DNA of 64,000 nucleotides from a bacterium. Lineage in GTDB: Bacteria > Hydrothermota > DG-26 > JAUXAN01. Below the pieces are notes generated by a model. That model had not been told where the DNA came from and did no database searches. It worked only from the letters and a program-made list of their open reading frames with translations. Made by a program: the position numbers and the translations under genes. Positions 3,844 to 62,475 of the stretch are shown here, piece after piece; positions within the stretch are counted from its first letter, which is position 1, and each line of letters starts with the position of its first letter. The stretch is from assembly GCA_030619885.1 (NCBI GenBank), contig JAUXAN010000007.1:1-64000 (forward strand). Direction: 5' to 3'.

Positions 3844-4340
3844 ATGAAGAAGATGGGTATATGGGTAGGTATATATATGGGTATATGGGGACGGTTCATT
3901 CATTATTCATAAAGTTGTAATTGTTGAAAAATAAATATGGGGACAGAGCCCATATTTTAAAATCCCAATATTACAAAATTCAAAATCCAAATTAAATCCC
4001 AATTTCCAAATCCCAACAAGAAGGAATGTGGTCGAGTTCAACTATTTGACTTGAATAGTTTTCTTTGTTTCTTAAGAAAGTGAGAAAATGAAATCAAAAA
4101 CAAGTTCTGGGGTCAATCTTTTATAATTTGATATTTATCGAATGGTCTAATGGTGTCGGACGTTGACATTTAACTCGGTTATCGGACTTCGGCGAGCTCA
4201 GTCGAGCCGTTAGCGGTAATCGTTTGTCGAATTATATGGAAATATGGGGACTGTCCCCATATTTTGAGAATAAAGACATTAAACGAAATCGAAAAAAAGA
4301 CCTTGACCCCAAAAGATTTATATAAATAATTATTTAACTT

Positions 4341-4652
4341 ATGGATAAGGAGGAAAAACATATGAATAAACAAACAAACCAGATAGAAAGGGAAAGAAAA
4401 ACACTTGCAATTATAATGGCAGTTGCAGGAGCAATAGTACGGATATTCACTTCTTATAAGAAAGGGTTTGTTGATGACATAGTACGTGGAGTAGGTATCT
4501 TTCTTCTCGTGTTTGGAGTGAGTAAAATTAGTGAACAAAAACAATGGTCGGAATTATCAGCAAAAGAAAAAAAGATTAAAATAGCAATAATAGTTGCTCT
4601 TGCCCTATCAGTTATTGCTGGGATTGTTGTATACTTCTTGGTTAAAAAATAG
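4341..4652 (+). CDS. Small two-TM hypothetical membrane protein
   Basis: ORF with aaggagg upstream; two hydrophobic helices. Confidence 0.55.
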   Translation: MDKEEKHMNKQTNQIERERKTLAIIMAVAGAIVRIFTSYKKGFVDDIVRGVGIFLLVFGVSKISEQKQWSELSAKEKKIKIAIIVALALSVIAGIVVYFLVKK

Positions 4653-4803: not shown

Positions 4804-5323
4804 ATGGAAACAATGTTTTTTATCTGGTTTGGAGTATGTTTTGTATGTTATATGATCCGTACAGTATTTAATGTACTAAACTACAAAAAAAAGCCCATTA
4901 GCAGAGAACAGAAAAATTTTGACCTCAATATTCATTGTCATGGGTATTTTGTGGTTTTCATGGTTCCAAATGTGTTTTTCAGATCCGATTAAAATTAATA
5001 TTCCTGGTTGGATTAGATATATTGGCTTCTTGTTATTTTTAATAGGGGTTTTCCTTTTCATTTTTTCACATATAAAACTGAAGGGATTTGAAGATAAAGG
5101 TGGGCTTATTACAGGTGGTATCTATTCAAAGATAAGGAATCCAATGTATTTAGGATTTATAATATGGATTATTGGTTTTTCGATATTTACACAAAGTCTT
5201 ATTACACTCGCCTCCTCTGCTATATGGATATCGCATATTATTTATTGGAAGATATTAGAAGAAAAGGAGTTAGAGAAGAAATACAAGGAGTATAGGGAAT
5301 ATAAAAAGAAGACATGGTTTTAG
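4804..5323 (+). pseudogene. Isoprenylcysteine carboxyl methyltransferase (ICMT/PEMT)-like protein, frameshifted
   Basis: 4804-~4920 frame 1 continues in frame 2 from ~4919; GGIYSKIRNPMYLGFIIW and EEKELEKKYKEYREYKKKTWF are typical of the family. Confidence 0.7.
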
Positions 5324-5519
5324 TATCTATAAATAAATCTTCTATGAGGGGGCGTGAACTCAATTATTCCGCAATTTTGCCTCCTTCGTCGGCAGAACAT
5401 CAGAAACACTCAAAACGTTATAAGAAAGCCTGGCTACATGTTCAGAAAATGTACTAAAATACTGGTGTATTATATAATTTGCATTAGCAAGGTCTTTTTA
5501 TAAAAGGGGAGAGGAAAAA

Positions 5520-5969
5520 ATGAGCGGTGATACTATCAAGAGGCTACTCAATGAGGATAAAAAACCAAGAGATAAAGAAATTTTAGGTGCTATCGGTGAA
5601 AAAGGATTCAAAGCATGGAATGATATTAGAAAGTTTATAGAGACTTACTACGACTTCTCACCAGAATTGAAATTTTATGGAAAAAAATATGGATGGACTG
5701 TACAATATCGCAAGAGCGGCAAAACGCTGTGTTCAATGTTTCCTGAGATGGGAGCATTTACAGTTTTGTTAACCTTAGGGAAAAAAGAAGTTGAAATGGC
5801 AATGAAACAACTTGGTGGCTTTAATGAGGAGGTGAAAGATAAAATAATCAAAACACCTCAATTGCATGATGGAAAATGGTTATGGATACGGTTGTCAGAT
5901 ATGAGCAATGTTGATGATATTAAAAAACTGATAAAGTTAAAAAGAAGACCTAAAGCGGTAAAGACATAA
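5520..5969 (+). CDS. DUF3788-family protein
   Basis: KFYGKKYGWTVQYRKSGKTLCSMFPEMGAFTVLLTLGKKE; DGKWLWIRL. Confidence 0.65.
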   Translation: MSGDTIKRLLNEDKKPRDKEILGAIGEKGFKAWNDIRKFIETYYDFSPELKFYGKKYGWTVQYRKSGKTLCSMFPEMGAFTVLLTLGKKEVEMAMKQLGGFNEEVKDKIIKTPQLHDGKWLWIRLSDMSNVDDIKKLIKLKRRPKAVKT

Positions 5970-6165
5970 AAATTGGCCAGTCCCTCCGTGTGAAAAAGGG
6001 GACAGGCTTCCTTTTTCTTCCTGTCCCCATATTAAAATCAATCTGCGAACATCTGTGTTAATCTGTCATACGACCCGTATGGGCGTCCTCTTTCTCTAAA
6101 AAAAATTCTTGACATTTTAGAAAACGTTAATATGAAAGATTTATACATTATATAAGGAGGTAAAG

Positions 6166-6822
6166 ATGAAGATTAAATGGTTAGGTCATTCCTCTTTTTT
6201 AATAGAGGCTGGAGATGGGAAAAGAATTATAACCGACCCGTACGAACCGGGCTCATACGGTGGTGCCGTCGGTTATAAAAAAATAGAAGAGTCTGCCGAT
6301 ATAGTTACTGTCAGTCATGAACACGAAGACCATAACTGTTGCAAAGATATGAAAGGCAGCCCTGAAATTGTCAAAGGTACAGGGGAGAAAGCCATTAAAG
6401 GTATCAAGATTTCAGGTGTCCCTTCTTATCATGACTCATCTGGTGGTTCTGAACGGGGTGAAAATACGATATTCAGTTTCGAGATCGATGGGATGAAAGT
6501 CTGTCATCTTGGTGATCTTGGACATCTTCTTTCTGATGAGGATAGTTCTAAAATTGGAGATGTGGATGTTCTGCTCATACCTGTGGGTGGTTTCTATACC
6601 ATCGATGCGGCTGAGGCAACGAAGGTTGTGGGAAAATTGAATCCCAAAGTTGTTGTGCCGATGCACTATAAAACGGAAGTGCTGGGGTTTGATATAGCAG
6701 GTGTTGATAATTTTTTAGCGGACAAGAAGAATGTTAAAAGACTCGATTCGTCAGAAATAGAACTAAAAAAAGAGAGTCTGCCTGCTGAGAGCGAGATAGT
6801 AGTCCTAAAACATGCACTTTGA
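6166..6822 (+). CDS. MBL-fold metallo-hydrolase (UlaG-like)
   Basis: MKIKWLGHSSFLIE, VSHEHEDHN, CHLGDLGH, VVVPMHYKT motifs. Confidence 0.85.
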   Translation: MKIKWLGHSSFLIEAGDGKRIITDPYEPGSYGGAVGYKKIEESADIVTVSHEHEDHNCCKDMKGSPEIVKGTGEKAIKGIKISGVPSYHDSSGGSERGENTIFSFEIDGMKVCHLGDLGHLLSDEDSSKIGDVDVLLIPVGGFYTIDAAEATKVVGKLNPKVVVPMHYKTEVLGFDIAGVDNFLADKKNVKRLDSSEIELKKESLPAESEIVVLKHAL

Positions 6823-7032
6823 TTTAAACATTTTAAAAATGGGGACGCAGATGAACGCAGATTTACAGGATTTTGTTAACCACAAAGCATGTCCTGAGCG
6901 GAGCCGAAGGGACTCCAATGCAAAGAAGAAAACATTTTTTCTTATTAGTTTTGTGCATTGGTAGTAAAAATTATCTGCGATTATCTGCGGAAATCTGCGT
7001 TCTATTAATTTTGTCGATAATGTGAGGTGTTT

Positions 7033-7878
7033 ATGCGAGAGATAGATTATGAACTTGTTGTTAATAAAGTAAAAGAGTTGTGTATGGATGCAAACTATAA
7101 TCTGGGCAGTGATGTAGAGAATGCGTTGAAGAAAGCTTATGAGAATGAGGAATCACCCACAGGTAAGGAGGTTCTCCGTCAGATCCTTGAGAATGCAAAG
7201 ATAGCCAGGGAGGAGAAACTTCCCATGTGCCAGGATACGGGTTTTGCTGTCTTCTTTATAGAACTGGGTGACGAGGTTAAAATAAATGGTGGAATCCTGC
7301 CAGATGCGATCGCAGAGGGTGTGCGAAAAGGGTATACCGATGGATATTTGAGAAAATCCATCGTAGACGACCCTACTATAGATAGAAAGAATACGAAAGA
7401 TAATACGCCGCCAATAATCCATCTCGATATAGTGAGGGGTGATAAATTGAAGATTGTATGTGTACCCAAAGGTGGTGGTGCAGAGAATATGTCCGAGGTG
7501 AAGATGATGAAACCTGCAGATGGACTGGAGGGGATCAAGGACTTTGTTGTGGATAGGGTGAGGAGATCGGGTGGAAACCCCTGTCCACCTGTTATTGTTG
7601 GCGTTGGTATAGGCGGTACTTTTGAACGGTGTGCTATGCTTGCTAAAAAAGCACTTTTACGAACAGTTGGTGAGCATAACCGAGACCCGAGATTTGCAGC
7701 GGCAGAGAGAGAACTATTAGAAAGAGTGAATAACCTCGGAATAGGACCTATGGGTTTAGGTGGAAGGACTACGGCATTGGCAGTCAATATAGAAACCTTT
7801 CCCTGCCATCTTGCAACGATGCCAGCTGCGGTGAATATGAACTGCCATGCAACAAGACATAAAGAGATTGTAATTTAG
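7033..7878 (+). CDS. Fumarate hydratase, class I, alpha subunit
   Basis: REEKLPMCQDTGFAVFF, KGGGAENMSEVKMMKPADG, GVGIGGTFE; ATG 7033 preferred to GTG 7027. Confidence 0.9.
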   Translation: MREIDYELVVNKVKELCMDANYNLGSDVENALKKAYENEESPTGKEVLRQILENAKIAREEKLPMCQDTGFAVFFIELGDEVKINGGILPDAIAEGVRKGYTDGYLRKSIVDDPTIDRKNTKDNTPPIIHLDIVRGDKLKIVCVPKGGGAENMSEVKMMKPADGLEGIKDFVVDRVRRSGGNPCPPVIVGVGIGGTFERCAMLAKKALLRTVGEHNRDPRFAAAERELLERVNNLGIGPMGLGGRTTALAVNIETFPCHLATMPAAVNMNCHATRHKEIVI

Positions 7879-7886
7879 GAGGAGAA

Positions 7887-8441
7887 ATGGGAGCGATTAA
7901 GTTGACTACACCTTTGAAAGTTGAGGATGTTGAGAGATTGAAGATTGGTGATGCGGTCTTATTGAATGGGGTCATATATACGGGTAGGGACGCTGCTCAT
8001 AAGAGACTCTTTGAACTTTTGAAGAAAGGAGAGGATCTGCCAATAGATATAGAAGGTCAGGTGATATATTATGTAGGACCTACTCCCGCGAAGCCTGGTT
8101 ATGTTATAGGGTCTGCCGGTCCTACCACATCTTACAGGATGGACCCTTATGCGCCTGCACTCATCGAGCGCGGGCTGAAGGGTATGATTGGGAAGGGAAA
8201 TAGGGGAGAGGAAGTAAAAGAAGCGATGCGGAAACACAAGGCGGTCTACTTTGCTGCAACGGGCGGTGCTGGTGCTCTGATTGCAAAATCTATTAAATCT
8301 TCTGAGATAGTCGCGTACGAAGATTTGGGTCCAGAGGCTGTAAGGAAGTTAGTAGTTGAAAACTTTCCAGTAATAGTCGCAAATGACTGCTATGGCGGTG
8401 ATCTATTTGAAGAGGGTATGAAAAAATACTCAAAGAGATAG
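7887..8441 (+). CDS. Fumarate hydratase, class I, beta subunit
   Basis: GAIKLTTPL, GRDAAHKRL, GPTTSYRMDPYAP, ATGGAGALIAKSI. Confidence 0.9.
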   Translation: MGAIKLTTPLKVEDVERLKIGDAVLLNGVIYTGRDAAHKRLFELLKKGEDLPIDIEGQVIYYVGPTPAKPGYVIGSAGPTTSYRMDPYAPALIERGLKGMIGKGNRGEEVKEAMRKHKAVYFAATGGAGALIAKSIKSSEIVAYEDLGPEAVRKLVVENFPVIVANDCYGGDLFEEGMKKYSKR

Positions 8442-49177: not shown

Positions 49178-51187
49178 CTACTTCTTGTATTGCAATTGAT
49201 ATAACCTGTAGTAGTATCCTTTTTTTGCGAGTAGTTGTTGATGTGTGCCTCTTTCTTTAATTCTCCCCTTGTGCATTACGATTATTCGGTCTACATTCTG
49301 TATGGTTGATAGACGATGCGCTACGACTATGGATGTCCTGTCGCGCAGGAGTTTTACCAGTGCATCCTGAATCAACTTCTCGGTCTCCGTGTCTATATTT
49401 GCTGTAGCTTCATCTAATACGAGTATCTTTGGATTGAAAGCTAATGCACGGGCAAAGGAGAGGAGTTGACGCTCACCTGTTGATAAGGTTACACCCCGTT
49501 CTTTCACCTCTTCATCATACTGCTTTGGCAATTTTTCTATAAATCGGTCTGCATTCACATAATTTGCTACCCTTCGTATCTCTTCCTCACTTATCTTCTC
49601 ATTCCCCAGACGAACGTTCCCCTTTATATCTTCTGCGAAGAGGAATACATCCTGCATTACCAATCCGATGTTTGCCCTGAGCCACTCTTTATCCATTGCT
49701 TTTATATTTACGCCATCGACTAAAATCTCCCCTCGATTCACATCGTAGAACCGTTCTAAAAGGTTCATCAACGATGTCTTACCTGCACCTGTGGCACCCA
49801 CTATTGCGATGCTCTCACCCTCGTTGACTGTAAAAGAGACATCTTCTAAAACCCACTCATCTTTATCGTAAGCAAACCAGACATTCTTGAATTCTATCTT
49901 TCCTTTCAAATCTTTGATTCTCTTGGGGGTTTCAGGATTTTTTATCATAGACTGGTTGTCCATTAACAGAAATACCCGTTCTGAAGATGCCATCGCTGAC
50001 TGCATTATGTTGTATTTTTCGGAAATATCCCTGATGGGTCTGAAGAACATCTCTATATAAGATATAAAAGCGACGAGTGCACCAAGCGATAGAGTCTGTG
50101 AGATGACCTCTCCACCCCCATACCATATTATCAGCGCAACACAGGCTGAACTTGCCACAGATATTAAAGGAGAGAAGACGGCAAATATCTTTATCTGTCT
50201 CATATTGGCAAGAAAGTTCTCATAATTTATTTCTTTAAAACGGCGGTAGTTCTCCCTCTCTCTTCTGAATATCTGCACAGCCCTCATCCCTGCTATGTTC
50301 TCCTGCAGGGAAGCATTGATTTTTGCTATCTTCAATCTCACCTCTCGAAAGGCAAGCCTTATTTTGCGAGAGAAGATGAGTGTAATCCAGATTATACCAG
50401 GAACGATTGCAAAACTCACCAAAGCGAGTCTCCAGTTCATCTTCAAAAGAACCACAACGATCCCCACAATTAAAAATATATCCTTGAAGAAGTATACTAC
50501 TACTTCTGTGAACATCTCATAGATAGCCTCTATATCGTTCGTCACCCTGGTGACCAACCTTCCAACAGGGTTTTTATCGAAGAATGAAAGGGACAATTTC
50601 TGGAGATGGGTAAAGACACTCATCCTCAAATCATACATCACCCTCTGTGCCATATATTCCATAACATATATCTGAACGAAGTTGAAGACAAAACTCACGA
50701 GCAAAACGACTAAAAAGACCAATGCTATTATGACTACTCCTTTTATATCTTCTTCTCTCAGACTCAGAAGTTGAGATTTGTCCAACTTTTTCATATCATC
50801 CCATCGGATTATTCGTCCGTCTTTTATATAGAAACTCTCTTTTAGAAATCCCTCCTTCTGCAACCTACCTAAATCCCCTCTCTCTAACTTTTTAACGAAT
50901 GTTCTACCATCAACACTGATGATCCTTGATGCGTATTTATCTTTAATAGACTTTGCAAATTCTGATTCATCGAGCACCAGTTCCCTTACCCCTACAATGA
51001 TATACCTGTCTATAGCAATTTTGGTAAGATATGGCAGTGATAGGTCGAATACGGTAATGACAATCAGTAAAGCTACAGAGAGTATGATGAGCCGTCTGTA
51101 AGGTTTTATATAAAGAAACAATCGCTTCATCAGCTTTGAATCGTAAGTCTTGCCGAGTTTCTCTTCTTCGTAATAGTATTCAGCCAT
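49178..51187 (-). CDS. ABC exporter half-transporter (TMD-NBD fusion)
   Basis: GATGAGKTSLMNLLERFYD, LSTGERQLLSFARALAFNPKILVLDEATANID. Confidence 0.93.
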   Translation of the reverse strand: MAEYYYEEEKLGKTYDSKLMKRLFLYIKPYRRLIILSVALLIVITVFDLSLPYLTKIAIDRYIIVGVRELVLDESEFAKSIKDKYASRIISVDGRTFVKKLERGDLGRLQKEGFLKESFYIKDGRIIRWDDMKKLDKSQLLSLREEDIKGVVIIALVFLVVLLVSFVFNFVQIYVMEYMAQRVMYDLRMSVFTHLQKLSLSFFDKNPVGRLVTRVTNDIEAIYEMFTEVVVYFFKDIFLIVGIVVVLLKMNWRLALVSFAIVPGIIWITLIFSRKIRLAFREVRLKIAKINASLQENIAGMRAVQIFRRERENYRRFKEINYENFLANMRQIKIFAVFSPLISVASSACVALIIWYGGGEVISQTLSLGALVAFISYIEMFFRPIRDISEKYNIMQSAMASSERVFLLMDNQSMIKNPETPKRIKDLKGKIEFKNVWFAYDKDEWVLEDVSFTVNEGESIAIVGATGAGKTSLMNLLERFYDVNRGEILVDGVNIKAMDKEWLRANIGLVMQDVFLFAEDIKGNVRLGNEKISEEEIRRVANYVNADRFIEKLPKQYDEEVKERGVTLSTGERQLLSFARALAFNPKILVLDEATANIDTETEKLIQDALVKLLRDRTSIVVAHRLSTIQNVDRIIVMHKGRIKERGTHQQLLAKKGYYYRLYQLQYKK

Positions 51188-52943
51188 AAGTCCTCTCTTC
51201 TGAAAAATCTTCCAACTCTTCTTCGAGTTGCTGTTTCTGATATATGTCGGAATAGATGCCGTTCAATCTGAGTAATTCTGTGTGGTTACCCTCTTCAACA
51301 ATTCTTCCATCTTCAAGGACTATAATTCTGTCTGCATCTTTTATAGAAGCGATTCGATGGGAAACGACGATGTTCGTCCTCCCTTTCATTATTCGTTTTA
51401 AACCCAAGAGTATCTTCTCTTCGGTATCGGTATCGACGGAGGAGAGGGCGTCGTCGAGTATGAAAATTTTGGGGTCTAACAAAATCGCCCTTGCAAGTGC
51501 AATCCTCTGTTTCTGACCGCCGGAGAGATTAACTCCCCTTTCTCCTATTATCGAATCAAATCCATCTGGAAACTCCATCACTTCATCATAAATCTGAGCA
51601 ATCTTTGCTGCCCTATGTATCTCATCTTCTGACACACCAAATCTTCCAAAAGCAATATTTTCTTTAACCGTATCCGAGAACAGGAAAGTATCCTGCGGAA
51701 TATAACCTATACTTCCTCTCAAATCGCTCAACGGGATAGTATGAATCTCACAACCATCGATGAATAACCGATTCTCTTTCACATCGAAGAGTCGTGGAAT
51801 GAGATTACACAGCGTTGTCTTACCTGCGCCTGTTCTGCCGACAATGGCAACTGTCTCACCCGGGATTATGGTTAAATTTATATCCTTCAATACAGGTGAA
51901 AGATTTTTGGCGTATGAAAAAATCACATCTGAAAACTCGACCTTCCCATTTATTTTGAGGCTCTTCACATCTTTACTATCCTTTATCTCAGGCTGTGTAT
52001 CGAATATTTTATTTATTCTACCCATTGATGCAGCGCCCCTTTGAAGCATGTTTATGACCCACCCGAGTGCCATCATAGGCCATGCGAGTATCCAAAGATA
52101 GCTTGAAAAAGCAACGAAATCGCCGGGTGTTATATTATTAAAGATAACCTGTTTACCACCAAGAAAGATTACAACAACTAAAGAGAGGTTAGCAAAGAAT
52201 ATAATCAGAGGAAAGAAAGCGCCCCAAATCTTTACAAGATGCATGTTCTTTCTCAGATAGTCCTTGCACATATCTCCAAACTTTCTTATCTGATTCTTTT
52301 CCTGAACATAAGATTTCACAACCCTCGTCCCCGCAACATTTTCCCTCGCCCTTTCAGTCATCGATGCAAAGGTCTCCTGAACCACTTCAAATCTGTGATA
52401 GATTAGTTTACCAAAGTAAGCTGATACAAGGGCAATGAACGGCATAGGGATAATAGCAAAGAGTGTGAGTTTAATATTGATATAGAGCATAAATCCAATA
52501 GAAGCCGCTCCCAGAAAGATCACATCAACTAAGAAGACGACCCCAAGTCCCGTAGCCCTTCTTACCGCATTCATATCGTTGGTGGCATGTGCCATCAGGT
52601 CACCTGTCTTCATCGAATTAAAATAGCTAAAAGAGAGCGTCTGAAGATGAGAAAAAAGTCTATTCCTCAGTTTCATCTCCACCTTCCTCGCAACGCCGAA
52701 TATGAAATATCTCCACCAGAATCGAAAAAATGCTATCGAGATTGCTATGCAGATGATATACAGTCCATATTTAATAAGATGAGACTGCACTATACCGCCT
52801 TTTGCAATGTCATCAACCGCCCACTTTATAACCCTTGGTATGAATAACTGGAGTGCATCTACCACGAGTAGGCAGATGAGACCCAGAAGGAGTTGCCATC
52901 TATACTCGTAAAAATATTCTTTCAATCTCTTAAAACTTTTCAT
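51180..52943 (-). CDS. ABC exporter half-transporter (TMD-NBD fusion)
   Basis: GRTGAGKTTLCNLIPRLFD, LSGGQKQRIALARAILLDPKIFILDDALSSVD; overlaps partner gene. Confidence 0.93.
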   Translation of the reverse strand: MKSFKRLKEYFYEYRWQLLLGLICLLVVDALQLFIPRVIKWAVDDIAKGGIVQSHLIKYGLYIICIAISIAFFRFWWRYFIFGVARKVEMKLRNRLFSHLQTLSFSYFNSMKTGDLMAHATNDMNAVRRATGLGVVFLVDVIFLGAASIGFMLYINIKLTLFAIIPMPFIALVSAYFGKLIYHRFEVVQETFASMTERARENVAGTRVVKSYVQEKNQIRKFGDMCKDYLRKNMHLVKIWGAFFPLIIFFANLSLVVVIFLGGKQVIFNNITPGDFVAFSSYLWILAWPMMALGWVINMLQRGAASMGRINKIFDTQPEIKDSKDVKSLKINGKVEFSDVIFSYAKNLSPVLKDINLTIIPGETVAIVGRTGAGKTTLCNLIPRLFDVKENRLFIDGCEIHTIPLSDLRGSIGYIPQDTFLFSDTVKENIAFGRFGVSEDEIHRAAKIAQIYDEVMEFPDGFDSIIGERGVNLSGGQKQRIALARAILLDPKIFILDDALSSVDTDTEEKILLGLKRIMKGRTNIVVSHRIASIKDADRIIVLEDGRIVEEGNHTELLRLNGIYSDIYQKQQLEEELEDFSEERTYG

Positions 52944-53135
52944 TGCCAGTTATTCTATCTTCACTTTTACAATATGTCAACACAAAAATTGAAAAAACAT
53001 TGATAATTAAATTTTGCAGGAAATTATTCTAACCGCAGATGAAACCCGCACCTATGCATAGGTGCGGGGTGAACACAGATAGACACAGATTGAATGAAAT
53101 ATTGGAGAAAATCATTGAATGTGCCTTCCAAGTAG

Positions 53136-53155
53136 GGAACAGGCATGCCTGTTCC
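53136..53155. repeat. 20-bp palindrome GGAACAGGCATGCCTGTTCC, copy 3
   Basis: Exact match. Confidence 0.9.
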
Positions 53156-53226
53156 CTACTACTTAGTCAATAAATTTTAGCCATCCGCGTTTATCCCGTG
53201 TGTCTGCGGTTTCCTGCCCAAAATGG

Positions 53227-53254
53227 TTGACAAGCACGGAGATTTTATTATAGT
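53227..53254 (+). promoter_or_regulatory. Sigma70-like promoter TTGACA-N16-TATAGT upstream of leader ORF
   Basis: ttgacaagcacggagattttattatagt. Confidence 0.5.
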
Positions 53255-53260
53255 AACAGT

Positions 53261-53395
53261 ATGAGAGGACAAAAGACATCCTCTATAATGAAAAGGGTTC
53301 TGAAACGAAGGCACATCCTGAGAATTCAGGAAAAATTCGATGAAATTTTCCGAGGAAAGTTGAAAGAAAAATCCATTTTATTTCGTATAATATAA
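53261..53395 (+). CDS. 44-aa basic leader ORF; stop overlaps sigma start (TAATG)
   Basis: MRGQKTSSIMKRVLKRRHILRIQEKFDEIFRGKLKEKSILFRII*. Confidence 0.4.
   Translation: MRGQKTSSIMKRVLKRRHILRIQEKFDEIFRGKLKEKSILFRII
53361..53390 (+). promoter_or_regulatory. ECF-like promoter motif, site 1: TGAAAGAAAAATCCATTTTATTTCGTATAA
   Basis: Same boxes and identical spacing as sites at 58917 and 59168. Confidence 0.65.
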
Positions 53396-54315
53396 TGGAA
53401 ACCCATAGGTATAAGGATCTCGACGAAAATGAACTCATAAAGCTTTGTGGTGAAAAAAAACATGAAGAAGCATGGTACGAGTTTCTTAATCGGTATAGCG
53501 AACATATCTGGAAATTTGCCAGATATAACAGCAGAACCATAGAGAGTAATGAATTCTATTTGTATGTATTCCAAAAACTTGAAGACGGAAAGCGACTGGC
53601 TAAATTTGACCCTTCGAAAGCTAAATTTATTACATGGTTCAACCGAGTCCTCAAAAATCTGTTGGTTGATCTTGCAAGAAAAAGGAGTAGAGAAAGTGTA
53701 GAATTTGTTTCTATAGAAAAGTTACCTGAACCTCCTACTCTAAGAGACCCAGCGAAGATTCATGAGTTGGAGGAAAAAGTAAGAATTGCCAAGTGGCCCT
53801 TTGAAGACTTGCCTCCGGAATATCGGATAACATGGAAATTAAGAAACTTGGTTGAACTTGAATTGGATACAGAAGATATTTCATGGATTGCAAGGGTAAG
53901 CGGACAATCAGTCCGAGAGGTGTTGGATAAGATTGAAAGTATTAAAGGCAAGTTAGATAAACAGAGAGAAAAAGGGCGGATAAAGGATGAGAAAATGCAA
54001 AGAGTCTTTAATAAAATTTTGAAATTAGAGAAAGAAGTCGAGAAATTGAGAAAAGAAACAGGGGCTTTTGACTTGGATGAAGAATGGGTAGTTAGAAAGT
54101 TGAGGATTAGATACCAGGAGATTCAGCAACGGCTTAGAAAGTTATACAAGCAACGAGATAACTTATTAGGGAGCAAGAAGAAAGACAAATTCACAGTGAA
54201 AGTCTTGACGAAAGATATTGCCTCTATACTGAATTGCAAGATGAACACTGTCTCCACCAGACTCAGCAGGACAGATAAGATTATAGAGAACAAGTTCGCA
54301 AAGGAGAAAGGATGA
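53395..54315 (+). CDS. Sigma-70 family RNA polymerase sigma factor (divergent, long coiled-coil insert)
   Basis: Region 2-like EEAWYEFLNRYSEHIWKFARYN..FDPSKAKFITWFNRVLKNLLVDLARKR; C-terminal HTH LTKDIASILNCKMNTVSTRLSRTDKIIENK. Confidence 0.75.
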   Translation: METHRYKDLDENELIKLCGEKKHEEAWYEFLNRYSEHIWKFARYNSRTIESNEFYLYVFQKLEDGKRLAKFDPSKAKFITWFNRVLKNLLVDLARKRSRESVEFVSIEKLPEPPTLRDPAKIHELEEKVRIAKWPFEDLPPEYRITWKLRNLVELELDTEDISWIARVSGQSVREVLDKIESIKGKLDKQREKGRIKDEKMQRVFNKILKLEKEVEKLRKETGAFDLDEEWVVRKLRIRYQEIQQRLRKLYKQRDNLLGSKKKDKFTVKVLTKDIASILNCKMNTVSTRLSRTDKIIENKFAKEKG

Positions 54316-54875
54316 AGAAAACCTTAAAGATATGCGGGAGAGAACAAACAGTAATTTTTTTCTATAATGATATTCAACGTAGGGGACACATATTGAAGCA
54401 CCTGTTGAAACAGAAAGAACACTGGGATGAATTAGTTCCTATGTTGCACATTCTACGAAACACACTTGAAGAAATCGGATGCAATCTCAAAGATTGTGAG
54501 CTAGGATGCAAGAACGAAGATGACTGCGACGGGATTTTCAGAGACCCAATAAAGTGGTATATGAATGTAGTTTTTGGGTGCATTGATGAAACATACGAAT
54601 ATAAACCACTGCATACACATAATTTGGAGCGTTGGAAAACAGGAAAATGGGTGGAGAGTATGTATTTCGTTTGTTCCAAAGGGATTTTTATCCATATTTG
54701 CCCTCTTTACATAATTTACACAGCATATCGACCAAAGCCGGGTACCACTTCTCAGGAATTTTACGAGAACGCAATAAATATAGTATGGAAAAAGAAAAGG
54801 CGTAGTGTAGAAAAATGGTGCCCGTCCTACGGGGATTGGCGCAAGGAATATTTCAAGATCGAAGGTTGGAGTTGA
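54312..54875 (+). CDS. Uncharacterised Cys-rich protein in the CHAT module
   Basis: ATGA overlap with the sigma gene; CNLKDCELGCKNEDDC; C-term ICPLYIIYTAYRPKPGTTSQEF. Confidence 0.55.
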   Translation: MKKTLKICGREQTVIFFYNDIQRRGHILKHLLKQKEHWDELVPMLHILRNTLEEIGCNLKDCELGCKNEDDCDGIFRDPIKWYMNVVFGCIDETYEYKPLHTHNLERWKTGKWVESMYFVCSKGIFIHICPLYIIYTAYRPKPGTTSQEFYENAINIVWKKKRRSVEKWCPSYGDWRKEYFKIEGWS

Positions 54876-54878
54876 GCA

Positions 54879-56567
54879 ATGGAAAAACAAAACAGAAAAT
54901 TCGATATTGAGTGGATGCGTTCTAAATTGGAGAAATACTTGACTCTATGGGAGCAGTATTATAAAAACCCCAAACTCAGAAAGCAGTATTCCAAGCCCTT
55001 TATTGTCTCTAATCTTCTGGAAACAATAGGGGCTCTTGAACGGATTGGGGATAAGGGTCGAGAGTTCAGCAATCTTAAGAACAAGTATAGAGTTGTCGTG
55101 ACGAGTTCTTTAGAGGAGATTGTTAAAGAAGCAGTCAAGGCTCTGAGACAAACTGATTATCCCTCATTGCTTAACATTTTTATAGAGAATATCAAATCTA
55201 CCCTCAAAAGAGGAGGAGATTACTATATGCTGAAGGATGAAGGCGAGGATATTCTTATTAAAAGGGATGAATTGGAACTGGTTCTTCAAGAGTTGGGCAA
55301 AATAGAATGTGGTAGCCTTGAGAAAAAAGAGATAGCGAAAATTCAAACCACACTTAACCAAGCAGACAAAAAGTTGAAGGAATCCATTCGTTATTTCAGT
55401 TTCTTGAAAGAATTTGCAGAGGATTATAGAGCAAGATTTAACATTCGGGAAAGGAACAAATTCTGGTGGTGGTTTGAAATACCGGAAAGGGCAGTAAAGG
55501 TTTTTTCTCTAAAGGAATGGGAAACTTTGTTGAAATTGTCGCATATGATGCCAGAGGCTACCGAATATTATGAGAAGACAGAAGAGTGTGAGCAATTTGA
55601 AGATGTAATACCTGGGTATATTGACGGAATGTTGCCGAAACAATTAGAACATAGATTTGAAAAACACCTTAAAAGTTGTAAATACTGTCTCTATCAAGTG
55701 ATGGACCTTTACAGAATCACACATGAAATGGAAAAGGCGAAACCCGAGAAAGTCCCTAAGGATATGCTCGAAAAGGCCAAGAAAATAGTAGCTCCTCGTC
55801 TTACAGAGGCAGAAGAGGAAATCAAAGAGATAATAAAAGAACTAATAAGAATCTCTACTCCTCGGCCGCGGTCGGAATTGCCACTCTATCCTGACCGTGT
55901 AGCTGAACGGGTAGAGGCAGCATACCCTGCGACACCGCTTCTTCCAATAGGAGCCTTCTTGATATCACTTATTACTATATCTGGATTGCGGAGAAAAGCA
56001 TTGACTTACCGTGGTAAGAAATTTAAATATGAGAAAAAGAAGTTGATTGAGGAAATTTTTAGCGAAATTGACTCTCCCAAAATGCTCTATGAATTATTGC
56101 TCAAACTCCTGGAAGGAAGACTCGAAGACAAACAAATGAAGAGAATATTCAGCAAGTTGCCCTCAGAAGTAAGACAGGAATTTGACCGGAAAATTCTTTC
56201 TGAACTACTCCAGCAAGTTCCTCGTGAGGATTTAGATCTGCTTAAAGCTTTGCTTTATCTTAAACTGGGTAAGTGGGGAAAAGCCAAAGATTCCTTTATT
56301 AATCTCCTTGGGAGTGAACAAAAAACACTCGCCTTACGCGGTTGCATCTGGAGTGCTATTAAGGCCAACCGGGCTCGATTCGCTATGAAACAGGCAAAAG
56401 TGCTTTGCCAGAGTGAAAGAATATCCATAAAACCTCAACAAATTTTGCAGGAAGCAAAGAAACAGTTGCCGGATGATTTCCTTCGCCTAGATGTGGATCA
56501 AGAGATTTCTTTGGAGATAAAAATCCTTAACAAAGTCTTAATGGGTTTAGACCAAAGGAAAGATTGA
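54879..56567 (+). CDS. zf-HC2 (anti-sigma-like) protein with possible hydrophobic segment and helical C-terminus
   Basis: CEQFEDVIPGYIDGMLPKQLEHRFEKHLKSCKYCLYQV matches HxxxCxxC anti-sigma zinc finger; LLPIGAFLISLITISGL. Confidence 0.65.
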   Translation: MEKQNRKFDIEWMRSKLEKYLTLWEQYYKNPKLRKQYSKPFIVSNLLETIGALERIGDKGREFSNLKNKYRVVVTSSLEEIVKEAVKALRQTDYPSLLNIFIENIKSTLKRGGDYYMLKDEGEDILIKRDELELVLQELGKIECGSLEKKEIAKIQTTLNQADKKLKESIRYFSFLKEFAEDYRARFNIRERNKFWWWFEIPERAVKVFSLKEWETLLKLSHMMPEATEYYEKTEECEQFEDVIPGYIDGMLPKQLEHRFEKHLKSCKYCLYQVMDLYRITHEMEKAKPEKVPKDMLEKAKKIVAPRLTEAEEEIKEIIKELIRISTPRPRSELPLYPDRVAERVEAAYPATPLLPIGAFLISLITISGLRRKALTYRGKKFKYEKKKLIEEIFSEIDSPKMLYELLLKLLEGRLEDKQMKRIFSKLPSEVRQEFDRKILSELLQQVPREDLDLLKALLYLKLGKWGKAKDSFINLLGSEQKTLALRGCIWSAIKANRARFAMKQAKVLCQSERISIKPQQILQEAKKQLPDDFLRLDVDQEISLEIKILNKVLMGLDQRKD

Positions 56568-58852
56568 TGAGAAAAATTAGGATTTCTTTGATTCTTGAAA
56601 AGGCTCAGAAGCTATTCAAAAAAGGAAAATACTCCGAGGCTGAGACAGAATTCCGCAAGGTATTGGCTCTCAAACCAACTAACAAAAAAATACTAATAGA
56701 CATCCACCGTGAACTGGGGGCATCGCTTTTCTATCAAGAAAAACATACTGAAGCTGAGAAAGAATTCCACAAGGCATTGGCACTCAAACCTAGAAGCAAA
56801 GAAACATTGGCAGGTATCCATAAGTGGTTGGGATCGGTGCTTTATTCTCAAGGAAAATTTGCTGAGGCTGAAGCAGAGTTCCGCAAGGTATTGGCTCTCA
56901 AACCCAGAAGCAAAAGAACATTGGCGGCTATCCATGGGTGGTTGGGACTTGTGCTTTATTCTCAAGGAAAATTTGCTGAGGCTGAAGCAGAGTTCCGCAA
57001 GGAATTGGCTCTCAAACCCAAAGATAAAGAAGTATTGGCGGATATCCATTGGTTGTTAGGAAAGGTGCTTTATTCTCAAGAAAAATTTGCTGAGGCCGAA
57101 GCAGAGTTGCACAAGGCATTAGCTTACAAACCTAAGGATAAAGAAATACTGACGGATATCCATAGCCAGTTGGGATGGGTGCTTTTTTCCCAAGAAAAAT
57201 ATGCTGAGGCCGAAGCAGAGTTACATAAAGCATTGGCTCTCGAACCCAGGGATAAGGAAATACTGGCGGATATCCATAGGCAGTTAGGGTGGATCCTTTC
57301 TTTCCAAAAGAAATATATCGAAGGTGAAGCGGAGTTCCGTATGGCATTGGCTCTCGAACCCAGGGATGAGGAAATACTGGCGGATATCCATCATCGGTTG
57401 GGATATTTGCATTCTTTCCGAGAAAAACACATTGAGGCTGAGGAGGAGTTCCGCAAGGCATTGGCTCTTAAACCCAAGGATAAAGAAATACTGGCAGATA
57501 TCCATAGACAGTTAGGGTGTACGCTTTCTCTCCAAAAGAAATACGATGAGGCTGAGGAGGAGTTCCGCAAGGCATTGGTTCTTAAACCTGCTGACAAAGA
57601 GGCACTTATAGCCATCCACTATTGGTTGGGGGTAGCACTTTTTTCCCAAAGAAAACACATTGAGGCTGAGGAGGAGTTCCGCAAGGCATTGGCTTTAAAT
57701 CCTGTTGACAAAGAAGCACTCTTAGTCATTGGTTATGGACTGGGGTTAACGATTTCTTCACAAAAAAAACGCACTGAACTTGAAACAGAACTCCTTCGTG
57801 AAGCATCTTCCATAACTATGCCAAAATTGGCACCTATTCCTCCGATCACAAAAATCAGTATAATACAATCTCCAAGTGAAATCTTTATTGATTCAACAAG
57901 TCTTCGACCATCGCTGCGTATATCCCCGGGTGAAAAGAAACGAATTCCCTTTGAGGAAGCAAATTTAAGAGACTCTATCCAAAGAGTTTTCAACTCTGCA
58001 TTCTGTTTTATTGATAATTGGAATGAAGAGGCTATAGAAAATTTAAGACATAATAGCAAAGTATTATCGAACTATGTATCCCTCGATTCTTGTATAACAG
58101 AAGAAGATTACATTGTTTTAGACCTGAGCGGTGAAGGGATCGTTGACTCCCCCTTGGAACTTCTGCATTTTAAAGACAACTTTCTCTGTTTAGAGAAATT
58201 TATTGGAAGAACTTGTTCTGAAAAACAGAAAACGCCCAATCTACAGGATACTCCTGTAAAAATGACAATTATTGCCAACCCATGTGGGACTGTCCCGGAG
58301 GCAGAAGATGAAGCAAAGACCATCAAAGAAGAACTTTCAGACTTGATCCGAAACAACCAAATCAGAATCGAAGTCATCAACTCTATTTCACCTTTAGATC
58401 TTCAGAAAATTATGGAGGAAGTAGATATCCTCCACTTTGCAGGGCACGCTGATTTCGACCCTCAAACAGGTAAGGGGTACTGGCTTCTGAGTGACAACAG
58501 AAAATTGACTCCTACTGAATTGGCAACCGTAGAGCATCCCCCTATGCTTATCTTTGCTAATGCGTGTGAATCAGGGAAAGTTAAGCATTTAGACCAAAAA
58601 AGGTGGTTCTATAAAAGTCTTGCAAATTTATTTATTAAGGAAGGATTTCCTCATTACATTGCTACTATGTTTCCTGTTCCGAGCAGTCTTTGTATTCCAC
58701 TTGCTGTGGATTTTTATCGGGAGTTGGCTAAAGGCAAATCCATTGGAGAATCATTAACTATCGCCCGACGCAAAGCCTATGATACCAGAAACCCTATATG
58801 GGTTGCTTACATGCTGTATGGAGACCCCAGAGATAAGATATGGAAAACTTAG
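56567..58852 (+). CDS. TPR-CHAT caspase-like protease
   Basis: About ten 38-aa TPR-like repeats, then CHAT domain with dyad motifs DILHFAGHADF and LIFANACESGK; ATG 56567 overlaps upstream stop. Confidence 0.85.
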   Translation: MRKIRISLILEKAQKLFKKGKYSEAETEFRKVLALKPTNKKILIDIHRELGASLFYQEKHTEAEKEFHKALALKPRSKETLAGIHKWLGSVLYSQGKFAEAEAEFRKVLALKPRSKRTLAAIHGWLGLVLYSQGKFAEAEAEFRKELALKPKDKEVLADIHWLLGKVLYSQEKFAEAEAELHKALAYKPKDKEILTDIHSQLGWVLFSQEKYAEAEAELHKALALEPRDKEILADIHRQLGWILSFQKKYIEGEAEFRMALALEPRDEEILADIHHRLGYLHSFREKHIEAEEEFRKALALKPKDKEILADIHRQLGCTLSLQKKYDEAEEEFRKALVLKPADKEALIAIHYWLGVALFSQRKHIEAEEEFRKALALNPVDKEALLVIGYGLGLTISSQKKRTELETELLREASSITMPKLAPIPPITKISIIQSPSEIFIDSTSLRPSLRISPGEKKRIPFEEANLRDSIQRVFNSAFCFIDNWNEEAIENLRHNSKVLSNYVSLDSCITEEDYIVLDLSGEGIVDSPLELLHFKDNFLCLEKFIGRTCSEKQKTPNLQDTPVKMTIIANPCGTVPEAEDEAKTIKEELSDLIRNNQIRIEVINSISPLDLQKIMEEVDILHFAGHADFDPQTGKGYWLLSDNRKLTPTELATVEHPPMLIFANACESGKVKHLDQKRWFYKSLANLFIKEGFPHYIATMFPVPSSLCIPLAVDFYRELAKGKSIGESLTIARRKAYDTRNPIWVAYMLYGDPRDKIWKT
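56600..57760 (+). repeat. Tandem 114-nt repeats encoding the 38-aa TPR-like units
   Basis: aaggaaaatttgctgaggctgaagcagagttccgcaagg recurs exactly 114 nt apart (about 56850 and 56964) with related units either side. Confidence 0.85.
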
Positions 58853-58916
58853 ACCTCTGAAAACCAAGAAATTAACTCTCCTTTCTTCCAAGAGATCCTC
58901 AATTTTTGCATTTTTT

Positions 58917-58946
58917 TGAAAGAAAATCCCAAGTTCTTTCGTATAA
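58917..58946 (+). promoter_or_regulatory. ECF-like promoter motif, site 2: TGAAAGAAAATCCCAAGTTCTTTCGTATAA
   Basis: Same spacing as sites 1 and 3. Confidence 0.65.
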
Positions 58947-58977
58947 GATAATAGAAGCATATAAGAGGAGGTAAAGA

Positions 58978-59163
58978 ATGCCGAGAAAATATAGAGGATT
59001 CTTACTTCAAAGACAAAAAGGCGAAAGTTACGAGAGATAGGCTGAGAGATGTCATAGATTTAATCTGGAAATGTGGAGAGAAAGCAAGAAAGAAAAGGGT
59101 GAGTGGTTGCCCAAAGAGGAGTATGAAAAACGGGCAGGAAAACCCGGAATGAAGGATTGGTAA
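58978..59163 (+). pseudogene. Small basic ORF with in-frame TAG at 59038-59040
   Basis: RBS agaggaggt; MPRKYRGFLLQRQKGESYER*AERCHRFNLEMWRESKKEKGEWLPKEEYEKRAGKPGMKDW*. Confidence 0.45.
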
Positions 59164-59167
59164 TTTA

Positions 59168-59197
59168 TGAAAGAAAAATGAATATTTGTTCGTATAT
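59168..59197 (+). promoter_or_regulatory. ECF-like promoter motif, site 3: TGAAAGAAAAATGAATATTTGTTCGTATAT
   Basis: Same spacing as sites 1 and 2. Confidence 0.65.
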
Positions 59198-59218
59198 AAT
59201 AATAGAGGAGGTGAAAAT

Positions 59219-59311
59219 ATGAAAAAAATAGTAGAAGAAGAAACCGTTCAGCGGATTTGGAAAATAGTCAAAGTCATCTTAGATTTATTAAAAGGACCCA
59301 TTATTGTATAA
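59219..59311 (+). CDS. 30-aa small amphipathic ORF
   Basis: RBS agaggaggtg; MKKIVEEETVQRIWKIVKVILDLLKGPIIV*. Confidence 0.5.
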   Translation: MKKIVEEETVQRIWKIVKVILDLLKGPIIV

Positions 59312-59381
59312 TAAGCGCAAATGGGTTATACGCATGAATTTTATTATCATTAAGAATAAACTTTTCAATAAGGAGGGATAG

Positions 59382-59687
59382 ATGTCCGTCAGAGAAGGAA
59401 GTAAAGAAGATAAGAGGTATGTGGAGGAAAATTTCTGGAATAAACTTGCACGAATAGGAAAATCCATTCCCTTTATCCGGGATGTTATTGCTCTTTATAA
59501 ATATATGAAAGACCCAAAAGTGCACTGGGCACGGAAGTCAATTGCTGTTGGAGCTCTTGTATATTTCATTGTTCCCACAGATGCTATACCCGATGCTATT
59601 CCTGTTGTCGGTTATCTCGACGATGCTGGAGTTGTTGCAGCCACAGTGAAATATCTTGATAGTGAACTTGAACCTTATTATGAATAA
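59382..59687 (+). CDS. DUF1232 (YkvA-like) membrane protein
   Basis: RKSIAVGALVYFIVPTDAIPDAIPVVGYLDDAGVVAATVKYL. Confidence 0.85.
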   Translation: MSVREGSKEDKRYVEENFWNKLARIGKSIPFIRDVIALYKYMKDPKVHWARKSIAVGALVYFIVPTDAIPDAIPVVGYLDDAGVVAATVKYLDSELEPYYE

Positions 59688-59710
59688 ACTTGTGAAAGGA
59701 GGTGAATAAA

Positions 59711-59812
59711 ATGCCGAAAGGCAAAAATAAAGGAAGCAAAAATAACTGGATATGGACAGCACTTGAAGTTTTAGCAACAGTAATAATTATTGTAGTTAAT
59801 AAGCATAAATAA
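59711..59812 (+). CDS. 33-aa single-TM small protein
   Basis: RBS aaaggaggtg; MPKGKNKGSKNNWIWTALEVLATVIIIVVNKHK*. Confidence 0.55.
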   Translation: MPKGKNKGSKNNWIWTALEVLATVIIIVVNKHK

Positions 59813-59831
59813 ATTCCATATCCAAAAATTT

Positions 59832-60434
59832 ATGCTTAAACTAATAATGGAAACATTTATGTTAAACGATTTAATGTATCCATTCATCTGTGCTGCCATT
59901 GGTTATCTAACCAACTGGATAGCAATCAAATGTCTATTCCATCCTCATAAATCATATATTTTGAAAGGTTTTAGAAATAAACAAATCCTTGTTATTCAAG
60001 GATTAATTCCTAAAAAGAAGGAAGAGATTGCTAAGAATGTATCAGAAAATATTACAAAATATTTTTTCGATAGTGATAAATTGCTTAAAAGGATTGAATC
60101 TGACCTGTTAAGAAGATTGACGAGAGAGAAGATAAAAAAGTTTGTTAAAAAGAATGTAAAAATGTGGAAGCCACTTGAATGGATTACAGAGTTTTATATT
60201 GATGAATGTTTATCCCTTAGTCAATTGAGAAAGAGATTTTTGGCTAATTTCGATGAAATAAGTGGACGGTCAATCAAATTTATTCAAAAGCATATCGAAC
60301 AGGAAATCCTAGATTACGATGAACGGCAGATAGAAGAGATTATGTATGAAAATGCTTCCAGGGAATTCAGGTTCATTATTATCTTAGGGGGGATTCTGGG
60401 TTTTATTTTTGGATGTATTTTGATTTTGGTTTAA
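59832..60434 (+). CDS. Short DUF445-family membrane protein
   Basis: AAIGYLTNWIAIKCLFHPHK...; C-term TM. Confidence 0.75.
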   Translation: MLKLIMETFMLNDLMYPFICAAIGYLTNWIAIKCLFHPHKSYILKGFRNKQILVIQGLIPKKKEEIAKNVSENITKYFFDSDKLLKRIESDLLRRLTREKIKKFVKKNVKMWKPLEWITEFYIDECLSLSQLRKRFLANFDEISGRSIKFIQKHIEQEILDYDERQIEEIMYENASREFRFIIILGGILGFIFGCILILV

Positions 60435-60449
60435 CAAGAAGGGGAATTA

Positions 60450-60851
60450 ATGAAGGGCAATCTGGTTAAAGATGAAAATGGGTGGTTAGTTAAAGTCATT
60501 AATTGGGTAATCGATAAGACATTTGACAACGCCATAGAATATGTAGAAGATTTGAAAAGAGATAATCCTAAAATGAATCAAGATGAACTTGCCGATGAAT
60601 GTATCAACGATGATGCATTATGGGCGGGTGTTGTTGGCGTTGGAATGGGGGCTCTACAAAGCATCCCAGGAATAGGACAGGCAGTCGCGGTAGCCTCAAT
60701 TGCACCTGAGGTTGCATATTTAACTAAATTACAGGTGGAAGGCATAATTAAAATAGCAGTTATCTATGATAGGAAAATTAGCAAAGAGAAACTTAGATAT
60801 TTAGTCCTTACCTGCTTGACGATTTATCTTGGTGGAGATTTTCTCAAGTAA
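60450..60851 (+). CDS. EcsC-like (N-terminal half) protein
   Basis: WAGVVGVGMGALQSIPGIGQAVAVASIAPEVAYLTKLQVEGIIKIAVIYDRK. Confidence 0.5.
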   Translation: MKGNLVKDENGWLVKVINWVIDKTFDNAIEYVEDLKRDNPKMNQDELADECINDDALWAGVVGVGMGALQSIPGIGQAVAVASIAPEVAYLTKLQVEGIIKIAVIYDRKISKEKLRYLVLTCLTIYLGGDFLK

Positions 60852-60869
60852 GTTGCAAAAGAGGCAGGT

Positions 60870-61187
60870 ATGCGTCTAACAAAACGCTTAATTATTAAAT
60901 ACATCAAGGGAACAACATTAAAAATGATCAAGAAGATTGCGATGAAATTGGGGATAAAGTTTACCAAGAAGGGCATTTTGAAAAGAATTCCTATTGTAGC
61001 AATACCTATAAATGCCGTAATGAACTACACAGAGATAAAGACTGGAGGTAAAATAGCTAAGAAATTTTTGTCTCCGAATTATATAATGTGTAGGAATTGT
61101 GGAGAGTTATACCCAAAACAAAATAAATTTTGCGATAAATGTGGTACTCCTATGCCCAGACGATTTTGGTTTTTTAAACGTCGATAA
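60870..61187 (+). CDS. EcsC-like C-terminal half with zinc ribbon
   Basis: ILKRIPIVAIPINAVMNYTEIKTGGKIAKKF; CRNCGELYPKQNKFCDKCGTPM. Confidence 0.5.
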   Translation: MRLTKRLIIKYIKGTTLKMIKKIAMKLGIKFTKKGILKRIPIVAIPINAVMNYTEIKTGGKIAKKFLSPNYIMCRNCGELYPKQNKFCDKCGTPMPRRFWFFKRR

Positions 61188-61233
61188 ATATTATCAAATG
61201 GTATCAGGTATTGACGAAGTCTGCATTTAACTT

Positions 61234-61263
61234 CTTTCTCGCTTTCGCACGAAAGCGAGAAAG
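61234..61263. repeat. 14-bp-stem hairpin CTTTCTCGCTTTCG-CA-CGAAAGCGAGAAAG, copy 2
   Basis: Identical to 43085-43114. Confidence 0.85.
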
Positions 61264-61315
61264 TGTTGGGGTTATTACAAAACCCTCCGTACGGTTGAAG
61301 ACCCGTATGGGATAC

Positions 61316-61397
61316 GTTTCTAAATTTATCATTCGATGATTCTAACATGTTAGAATGATGGAATGCAAAAATGCAAGGCTGAAGCCTTGCCCTACAT
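61316..61397. repeat. 80-bp mosaic repeat, copy 1 (partial copy at 43146-43175)
   Basis: ttctaaatttatcattcgatgattctaacatgttagaatgatggaatgcaaaaatgcaaggctgaagccttgccctacat. Confidence 0.9.
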
Positions 61398-61537
61398 AGA
61401 ATTATATGATTAGTGCCAGATGTTGACAAAGTTGACAAATTTTATAGTTGACATTCTTATGGAATTGTCTATAATTTTTATAGATGTTCGCAAAGTAGGT
61501 TCAAGTTCTTTGACAATTTAGAACTTGTGAAGGTGCT

Positions 61538-61625
61538 ATTACAAAACCTCTAATTCCCGTAAGGGAATTGAAACGATAATTTTCCTCTTTCCCCTTTAGG
61601 AAGATCTGGGTATTACAAAACCTCT
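61538..61625. repeat. CRISPR-like unit: 37-nt repeat, 37-nt spacer-length segment, 3'-degenerate second repeat
   Basis: attacaaaacctctaattcccgtaagggaattgaaac (61538-61574); attacaaaacctct again from 61612. Confidence 0.5.
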
Positions 61626-61637
61626 CAGTACAGGTCT

Positions 61638-61719
61638 GTTTCTAAATTTATCATTCGATGATTCTAACATGTTAGAATGATGGAATGCAAAAATGCAAGG
61701 CTGAAGCCTTGCCCTACAT
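61638..61719. repeat. 80-bp mosaic repeat, copy 2
   Basis: Same sequence as 61316-61397. Confidence 0.9.
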
Positions 61720-62423
61720 TTGCCATTTACAAGGTTAATAACTATGACCTTAAACTTTTAAAAACAGAAGCAATAGAACTTGCCGTTCAACATATTGGTA
61801 TTCGGAGAACAAGAACTGATAGATTCTTTGATGGATATTTAGGGAAACATCTTGTAAAAATTATTGACTTTAATCATCCATTAACACTTTTAGATTTACA
61901 ACTTCTTCAGGATGAGTTAAAGAAAAGACCAGATGAAGATAGAAACATAACTATAGTCTGTTTCGGCAAAGAATTAGTAGTCGACCCCTGGATTGAAGGA
62001 TGGAATAAGAAACATCTTGTAAATAAGATTAAAATAATTGAACTAAAAACAGATAAAAAATACGGTAATTTCTTAATCCATAAACCAGCAGAAGCCAAAA
62101 TTAAAGTTAAACGAAAAACAAAAGATAAAGCAGTAGTAGAAATCCAAAACTTTATCTCACCAACAATAATTGAACGCCTCAATATTGATAACAAACTCTT
62201 CAAAGTTAAAATCCCTGATTTTAGATGTATGATTGATACAGTTTTAATTGACAACAACTATGATGACAAAACCTTCCATATCGTCTGTTCTGATGTTCCA
62301 GAGAAGAAAAATGATTTGGTTGAAGGAAAATACGAAATGGAAATACCCAAAAAGAAGACCAAAGTGGCAGTAAAAGTCATTGATATGCTTGGCGAAGAAG
62401 TTCTATTTGTAAAACAGGTATAA
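61677..62423 (+). pseudogene. Probable 5'-truncated gene resembling the C-terminal region of adenine-specific DNA methyltransferases
   Basis: Start lies inside the repeat; YDLKLLKTEAIELAVQHIGIRRTRTDRFFDGYLGKHLVKIIDFNHPL...FISPTIIERL recalled from such proteins. Confidence 0.45.
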
Positions 62424-62442
62424 TTTGAGAAAAATCTTGTAG

Positions 62443-62462
62443 GGAACAGGCATGCCTGTTCC
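62443..62462. repeat. 20-bp palindrome GGAACAGGCATGCCTGTTCC, copy 4
   Basis: Exact match; contains ATG 62452. Confidence 0.9.
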
Positions 62463-62475
62463 CTACCTGTTCATT

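Follow-up and report, generated by a model that had tools for sequence, protein, structure and literature searches.

A coupled operon of an ECF-type sigma factor, a zf-HC2 protein and a TPR-CHAT protease in a Hydrothermota genome and its possible role as a proteolytic switch

We analysed a window of 64,000 nucleotides (nt) from a bacterium (Bacteria; Hydrothermota; DG-26; JAUXAN01), comprising positions 1-64,000 of contig JAUXAN010000007.1 in assembly GCA_030619885.1. The subject of the analysis was an operon at 53395-58852, in which a sigma factor gene, a cysteine-rich (Cys-rich) open reading frame (ORF), a zf-HC2 gene and a TPR-CHAT protease gene follow each other in this order on the + strand. 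All coordinates are positions on the + strand of the 64-kb window; the whole genome has a size of 2.46 Mb. An initial annotation of the same DNA had described four genes coupled by ATGA and TGATG overlaps and a 3-nt gap, with a sigma factor in first place, a zf-HC2 finger in the third product and an intact CHAT dyad in the last. The coupling was borne out by the sequence (Table 1), and family models gave the same assignments. The first product scored 51.8 bits against TIGR02937 (cut-off 42.9), the third 33.7 bits against PF13490 (cut-off 22.2) and the fourth 81.8 bits against PF12770 (cut-off 24).

The sigma protein is of an unusual type. It stayed below the Pfam cut-offs for r2 (22.9 bits) and r4 (15.8 bits), and alignment revealed a long helical insert and a second helix-turn-helix (HTH) at amino acids (aa) 265-304. 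The nearest homologue was found at locus L076 of a deltaproteobacterial metagenome-assembled genome. A long insert after the first HTH-like segment and a terminal second HTH were common to the sigma factors of the window, L076, a Leptospira plasmid and locus L137. No further sigma factor with such an insert was found in the phylum of the window.

In the zf-HC2 protein, the finger of the type H-x3-C-x2-C lies at aa 237-270. From its family and the gene order, this protein is predicted to be an anti-sigma factor that binds the window sigma factor. The CHAT domain of the last product spans aa 517-754. Its catalytic residues are a histidine at 58445-58447 (residue 628) and a cysteine at 58565-58567 (residue 668; numbering from the TTG at 56564), and neither varied among ten aligned CHAT domains. 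This is the sole CHAT gene in the genome. Its TPR array is built from 114-nt units (38 aa) that are about 80% alike, suggesting a recent expansion of the array. A plasmid search for the zf-HC2 protein and a viral-contig scan for the CHAT protein returned nothing. PADLOC named no defence system; its matches were confined to TPR-type and SAVED-CHAT-type models and a weak one to CARF.

Recurrence of the neighbourhood was analysed in genomes sampled from two phyla. A profile built from the CHAT domains of the window and of Leptospira was searched against 395 genomes of the L076 phylum, and the flanks of the matches were then searched with profiles. This resulted in 18 strong CHAT matches with E values of 1e-39 to 1e-54. 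The order sigma, zf-HC2, CHAT was present in 10 of the 17 members of one CHAT clade of this other phylum (L146-L153, L155 and L157). The zf-HC2 gene lies directly 5' of the CHAT gene in all ten triads, with the ECF sigma gene upstream of it; in L157 the sigma gene is located a few genes further upstream, and in L151 the contig ends within it. The same order was seen at L166, a locus with a more distant CHAT gene. In the phylum of the window itself, sigma and zf-HC2 neighbours were seen at 0 of 29 other CHAT loci. Fisher's test for the clade (10/17) against other loci (1/37) gave a p value of about 8e-6, where related loci are not fully independent. The initial annotation had set conservation of the neighbourhood as a check, and the arrangement was indeed kept in relatives, at the ten clade loci and at L166. 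In the tree, the window and Leptospira CHAT domains joined the triad clade, apart from the CHAT domains of the window's own phylum, on long branches and with support that was only moderate (80-87 in the Shimodaira-Hasegawa-like approximate likelihood ratio test).

The likeness to the triads is not confined to the CHAT domain. The window zf-HC2 protein matched the zf-HC2 family of the triads past the finger (E value 7e-12 over aa 228-317; hhalign E value 2e-5), and the matches to its relatives in the window's own phylum spanned little more than the finger. On L077, a plasmid of Leptospira interrogans, the top-scoring plasmid matches of the sigma factor and of CHAT adjoin each other. The order there is a sigma factor, a 242-aa protein, a CHAT protein without TPRs and a zinc-ribbon protein with hydrophobic segments. 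The PLSDB table lists no gene for the CHAT frame at 5719-6930 of L077, although this frame is intact and 403 aa long. At L137, the long-insert sigma gene adjoins a gene for a fusion of a zf-HC2 protein with a Lon-type protease domain (PF05362, 33.7 bits). On gene order and predicted domains, the rare long-insert sigma type thus occurs together with a protease, either CHAT or Lon, and with a partner of zf-HC2 or similar type in all three neighbourhoods long enough to judge.

Further observations were made at these loci. The L137 region at 5283-8134, which holds the sigma gene and the fusion, may encode an anti-sigma factor and a protease in one protein. A two-finger zf-HC2 protein is encoded at 10110-10994 of L166, between the sigma and CHAT genes. 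The triad CHAT proteins of L150 (3259-6612), L146, L147 and L157 bear varied extra domains, namely class III cyclase, TPR, CsgG-like and DUF4384. Several triads are preceded by recJ and followed by a FadL-like outer-membrane protein as well as a CsgG-like lipoprotein.

The Cys-rich protein behaved differently from its neighbours. Family-model searches gave no match, a viral-contig scan gave nothing, and no match was obtained in the 395 genomes, in a search run without a positive control. Its only relative was a truncated start in L076 at 4194. There, at 4194-4412, the homologue breaks off after about 33 codons and is followed at the contig end by direct repeats resembling insertion-sequence ends. 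The recurrent triads lack the protein. The initial annotation had considered it as a possible substrate of CHAT; a role as core partner or substrate is not supported, the protein being confined to the window and, truncated, to one relative. We regard it as poorly conserved and unlikely to be the core substrate.

A sequence motif connects the operon with the genes beyond it. The motif TGAAAGAAA-N12-TTCGTATA (17 positions) had exactly three matches in the 2.46-Mb genome when spacers of 12-14 were permitted, all of them on the + strand at this locus (sites 1 to 3 in Table 1). As a control, the reversed motif gave 0 matches in the genome. Allowing one or two mismatches yielded no extra genomic sites, and three mismatches yielded 39 sites, the three exact ones included, against 30 for the control, which is near the control level. 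The motif letters had been picked after the sites were seen, and therefore a test free of such choice was carried out, in which the 44 nt upstream of the sigma gene were compared ungapped with the 64-kb window. The other two sites ranked first and second with 30/44 and 29/44, the best score elsewhere being 26. In shuffled windows the best score averaged 26.4 with a maximum of 29; since shuffled sequence reaches 29, this test alone is modest. The L076 sigma gene is preceded by the same element at nearly equal distance from its start, with 15 of the 17 motif positions. A stronger test used the 44 upstream bases of L076, with which the three best + strand scores in the 64 kb all fell on the three window sites (35, 30 and 27; next 26). 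A shortened motif pattern matched the L076 genome only before its sigma gene.

The three sites do not appear to be simple copies of each other, as their spacers differ. A short ORF (MKRVLKRR...LFRII) ends at the sigma start, but coding was not accepted as the main cause of site 1: sites 2 and 3 have both blocks and the spacing in common with it and differ in spacer and flanks. The location, uniqueness and conservation of the motif suggest that it is read by the window sigma factor, with site 1 as an apparent autoregulated promoter. Grouping of the four genes exceeds chance, because the neighbourhood recurs elsewhere and the three genomic matches of the motif all lie here. The regulon appears to be small, self-activating and local, consisting of the operon itself and two short units downstream of the CHAT gene. 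The DUF1232 and DUF445 genes are possibly transcribed from site 3. A sigma-70-like promoter at 53227-53254 may provide basal expression of the sigma operon; it is weak on its own, as scan totals were not above those of shuffles.

Table 1. Features of the operon and its surroundings (positions in the 64-kb window)
Feature	Position	Strand	Evidence or remark
Candidate basal promoter, sigma-70 type, TTGACA-N16-TATAGT	53227-53254	+	Consensus scan 11/12
Site 1, predicted autoregulated promoter	53361-53389	+	Motif; ends 5 nt upstream of sigma ATG, possibly leaderless
ECF-type (extracytoplasmic function) sigma factor, 306 aa	53395-54315	+	TIGR02937; homologue at L076 63% identical
Cys-rich orphan protein, 187 aa	54312-54875	+	ATGA overlap with sigma gene
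zf-HC2 protein, 562 aa, predicted anti-sigma factor	54879-56567	+	3-nt gap after Cys-rich ORF
TPR-CHAT protease	56567-58852	+	ATG within TGATG overlap; TTG at 56564 in frame
Site 2, second motif copy	58917-58945	+	Motif match
Short ORF after site 2, 20 aa	58978-59040	+	AGGAGGT before ATG, strong ribosome-binding site (RBS)
Site 3, third motif copy	59168-59196	+	Motif match
Strongly amphipathic peptide, 30 aa, MKKIVEEETVQRIWKIVKVILDLLKGPIIV, directly after site 3	59219-59311	+	Strong RBS; hydrophobic moment 0.64
DUF1232 (YkvA-like) protein, candidate regulon member	59382-59687	+	PF06803, 53.7 bits
Peptide of 33 aa with one hydrophobic segment, candidate regulon member	59711-59812	+	RBS
DUF445 membrane protein, candidate regulon member	59832-60434	+	PF04286, 89.5 bits

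Downstream of site 2, the stretch 58978-59163 has an in-frame TAG at codon 21, followed by 40 open codons up to a TAA; it may be a decayed gene, a 20-aa peptide or a case of read-through. The peptide at 59219-59311 resembles membrane-active peptides by composition only. An identical 28-bp palindrome flanks the cassette at 53132-53159 and 62439-62466. Near copies are also located at 482 and 9846, so it is probably a dispersed repeat. An exact 82-bp direct repeat was found at 61316-61397 and 61638-61719. Between its copies lies one stretch, attcccgtaagggaattgaaac, that resembles a repeat of clustered regularly interspaced short palindromic repeats (CRISPR), and no array was seen.

As a whole, the locus is best explained by a CRISPR-independent proteolytic switch that controls the ECF sigma factor, to which we assign a probability of about 0.53. 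The zf-HC2 protein, acting as anti-sigma factor, would sequester the sigma factor via its finger region. Sensing of a protein or complex by the TPR array would activate CHAT, and activated CHAT would cut the zf-HC2 protein and free the sigma factor. Cleavage of the zf-HC2 protein by CHAT we consider close to evenly balanced, with a slight lean in its favour. Freed sigma factor would then transcribe its own operon and the two adjacent short units from the three motif copies. The output would be small membrane-type peptides, possibly together with the DUF1232 and DUF445 proteins. We favour such a switch because of the operon and its domains, the recurring triad, the placement of CHAT in the tree, the adjacency on L077, the motif, the sigma and zf-HC2/Lon pair of L137 and the precedents of Craspase (type III-E CRISPR) and Calp. 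Several points weigh against it. Seven of the 17 members of the CHAT clade are without the triad. The middle protein of L077 lacks a zf-HC2 finger, and its likeness to the C-terminal domain of the triad zf-HC2 proteins is only weak (hhalign 34%). In the L076 draft genome, where the locus is broken at the contig end, a CHAT or zf-HC2 homologue was not found. Single-sequence structure models were uninformative, with predicted local distance difference test (pLDDT) values of 42 for the Cys-rich and 39 for the zf-HC2 protein. Moreover, zf-HC2 anti-sigma factors frequently need no protease and work through redox or conformation.

In the main rival reading, the protease would be an output of the system and not its trigger. 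The zf-HC2 anti-sigma factor would itself sense stress, by redox or a ligand, and free the sigma factor, and the induced TPR-CHAT protein would be an effector that cuts other cell proteins. CHAT would be induced with the response because it is co-transcribed under the predicted autoregulated promoter. The zf-HC2 protein is large, and its extra N- and C-terminal parts could be sensors; a conformational change on oxidation is a known response of soluble zf-HC2/ZAS anti-sigma factors (PMC8999054). However, the recurrent adjacency of CHAT is to the anti-sigma gene and not to other targets, and the anti-sigma partner is the protein that is cut in both characterised protease/sigma systems. We regard such an effector role as rather unlikely, while giving it real weight.

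Control of the sigma factor by CHAT could also be direct, or run via the Cys-rich protein, leaving another role for the zf-HC2 protein. CHAT proteins in ECF neighbourhoods, as in ECF54, provide a precedent (PMC8999054), and the Leptospira operon does without a zf-HC2 finger. The zf-HC2 gene is nevertheless directly before CHAT in 10 of 10 recurrent triads, from which the Cys-rich protein is absent, and we find direct control improbable. Finally, an ECF sigma/anti-sigma pair could simply lie beside a functionally unlinked TPR-CHAT gene. A zf-HC2 gene beside an ECF sigma gene is common, and co-transcription alone is no proof of interaction. Linkage to this CHAT clade is, however, far above that seen with other CHAT genes, and the operon genes overlap or nearly so. 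Mere co-location therefore appears very improbable.

The roles of TPR-CHAT proteins outside CRISPR are largely unknown, and the recurrent operon offers a concrete candidate substrate and readout. Tentatively, and at somewhat less than even odds, widespread CRISPR-free operons of sigma, zf-HC2 and (TPR-)CHAT may represent a general switch that couples cytoplasmic sensing to dedicated transcription, with Craspase as a CRISPR-coupled branch or a parallel. In the present genome, such a switch would serve a local regulon of three promoters that makes small membrane-active peptides. If CHAT does cut the zf-HC2 protein, the logic of Craspase would belong to a broader family of sigma switches that are controlled by proteases and independent of CRISPR.

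Protease-controlled anti-sigma systems are already known as a kind. No description of the sigma/zf-HC2/CHAT triad was found in the open-access literature; most subscription papers were outside this scope, so this is weak evidence of absence. The window protein shares with zf-HC2/ZAS anti-sigma factors of the RsrA, ChrR and RshA type the H-x3-C-x2-C finger and a neighbouring ECF sigma gene. It differs from these in its size (562 aa), in having an N-terminal part of 230 aa and a C-terminal part that is long and helical, and in the protease gene of its operon. For ECF54, CHAT-domain proteins in a conserved genetic context have been described, proteolytic control has been proposed, and an anti-sigma factor is described as lacking (PMC8999054). 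In contrast, and comparing by description, a zf-HC2 gene sits between the sigma and CHAT genes in the window and in the ten triads. EACC2-caspase systems combine an ECF sigma factor with DUF1822 (Kaur et al. 2021), whereas the partner here is a zf-HC2 protein; none of the four operon proteins had a Pfam match to DUF1822.

In Calp, the Lon-SAVED protease CalpL cleaves the anti-sigma factor CalpT and thereby releases CalpS (PMC12751052). Cleavage of an anti-sigma factor that frees a sigma factor is the shared principle, and is a proposal for the window. Calp differs in having a Lon-type protease triggered by cyclic oligoadenylate, while the window has CHAT and TPRs; the zf-HC2/Lon fusion of L137 is closer to Calp in protease type. 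In type III-E systems (Craspase: Cas7-11, Csx29, Csx30, Csx31 and CASP-sigma), Csx29 cleaves Csx30 and relieves CASP-sigma, which has three motif sites within the locus (PMC10028731). The window sigma factor scored 14.6 bits against the III-E sigma model NF041236 (cut-off 100). The window CHAT had no sequence match to solved Csx29, with one chance match among solved chains (E value 0.41). The neighbours at 49178-62423 comprise ABC transporters, DUF1232, DUF445 and small or unnamed proteins, with neither Cas7-11 nor other cas genes among them, the rest of the genome not having been searched for cas genes. Because no III-E signature and no cas gene were found among the neighbours examined, the description as a CRISPR-independent analogue in the initial annotation fits. 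Unlike in type III-E, the candidate inhibitor is a zf-HC2 protein. Common to both are a TPR-CHAT protease, a sigma inhibitor (a candidate one in the window) and an ECF sigma factor, as well as a small, self-activating local regulon, which is predicted for the window locus.

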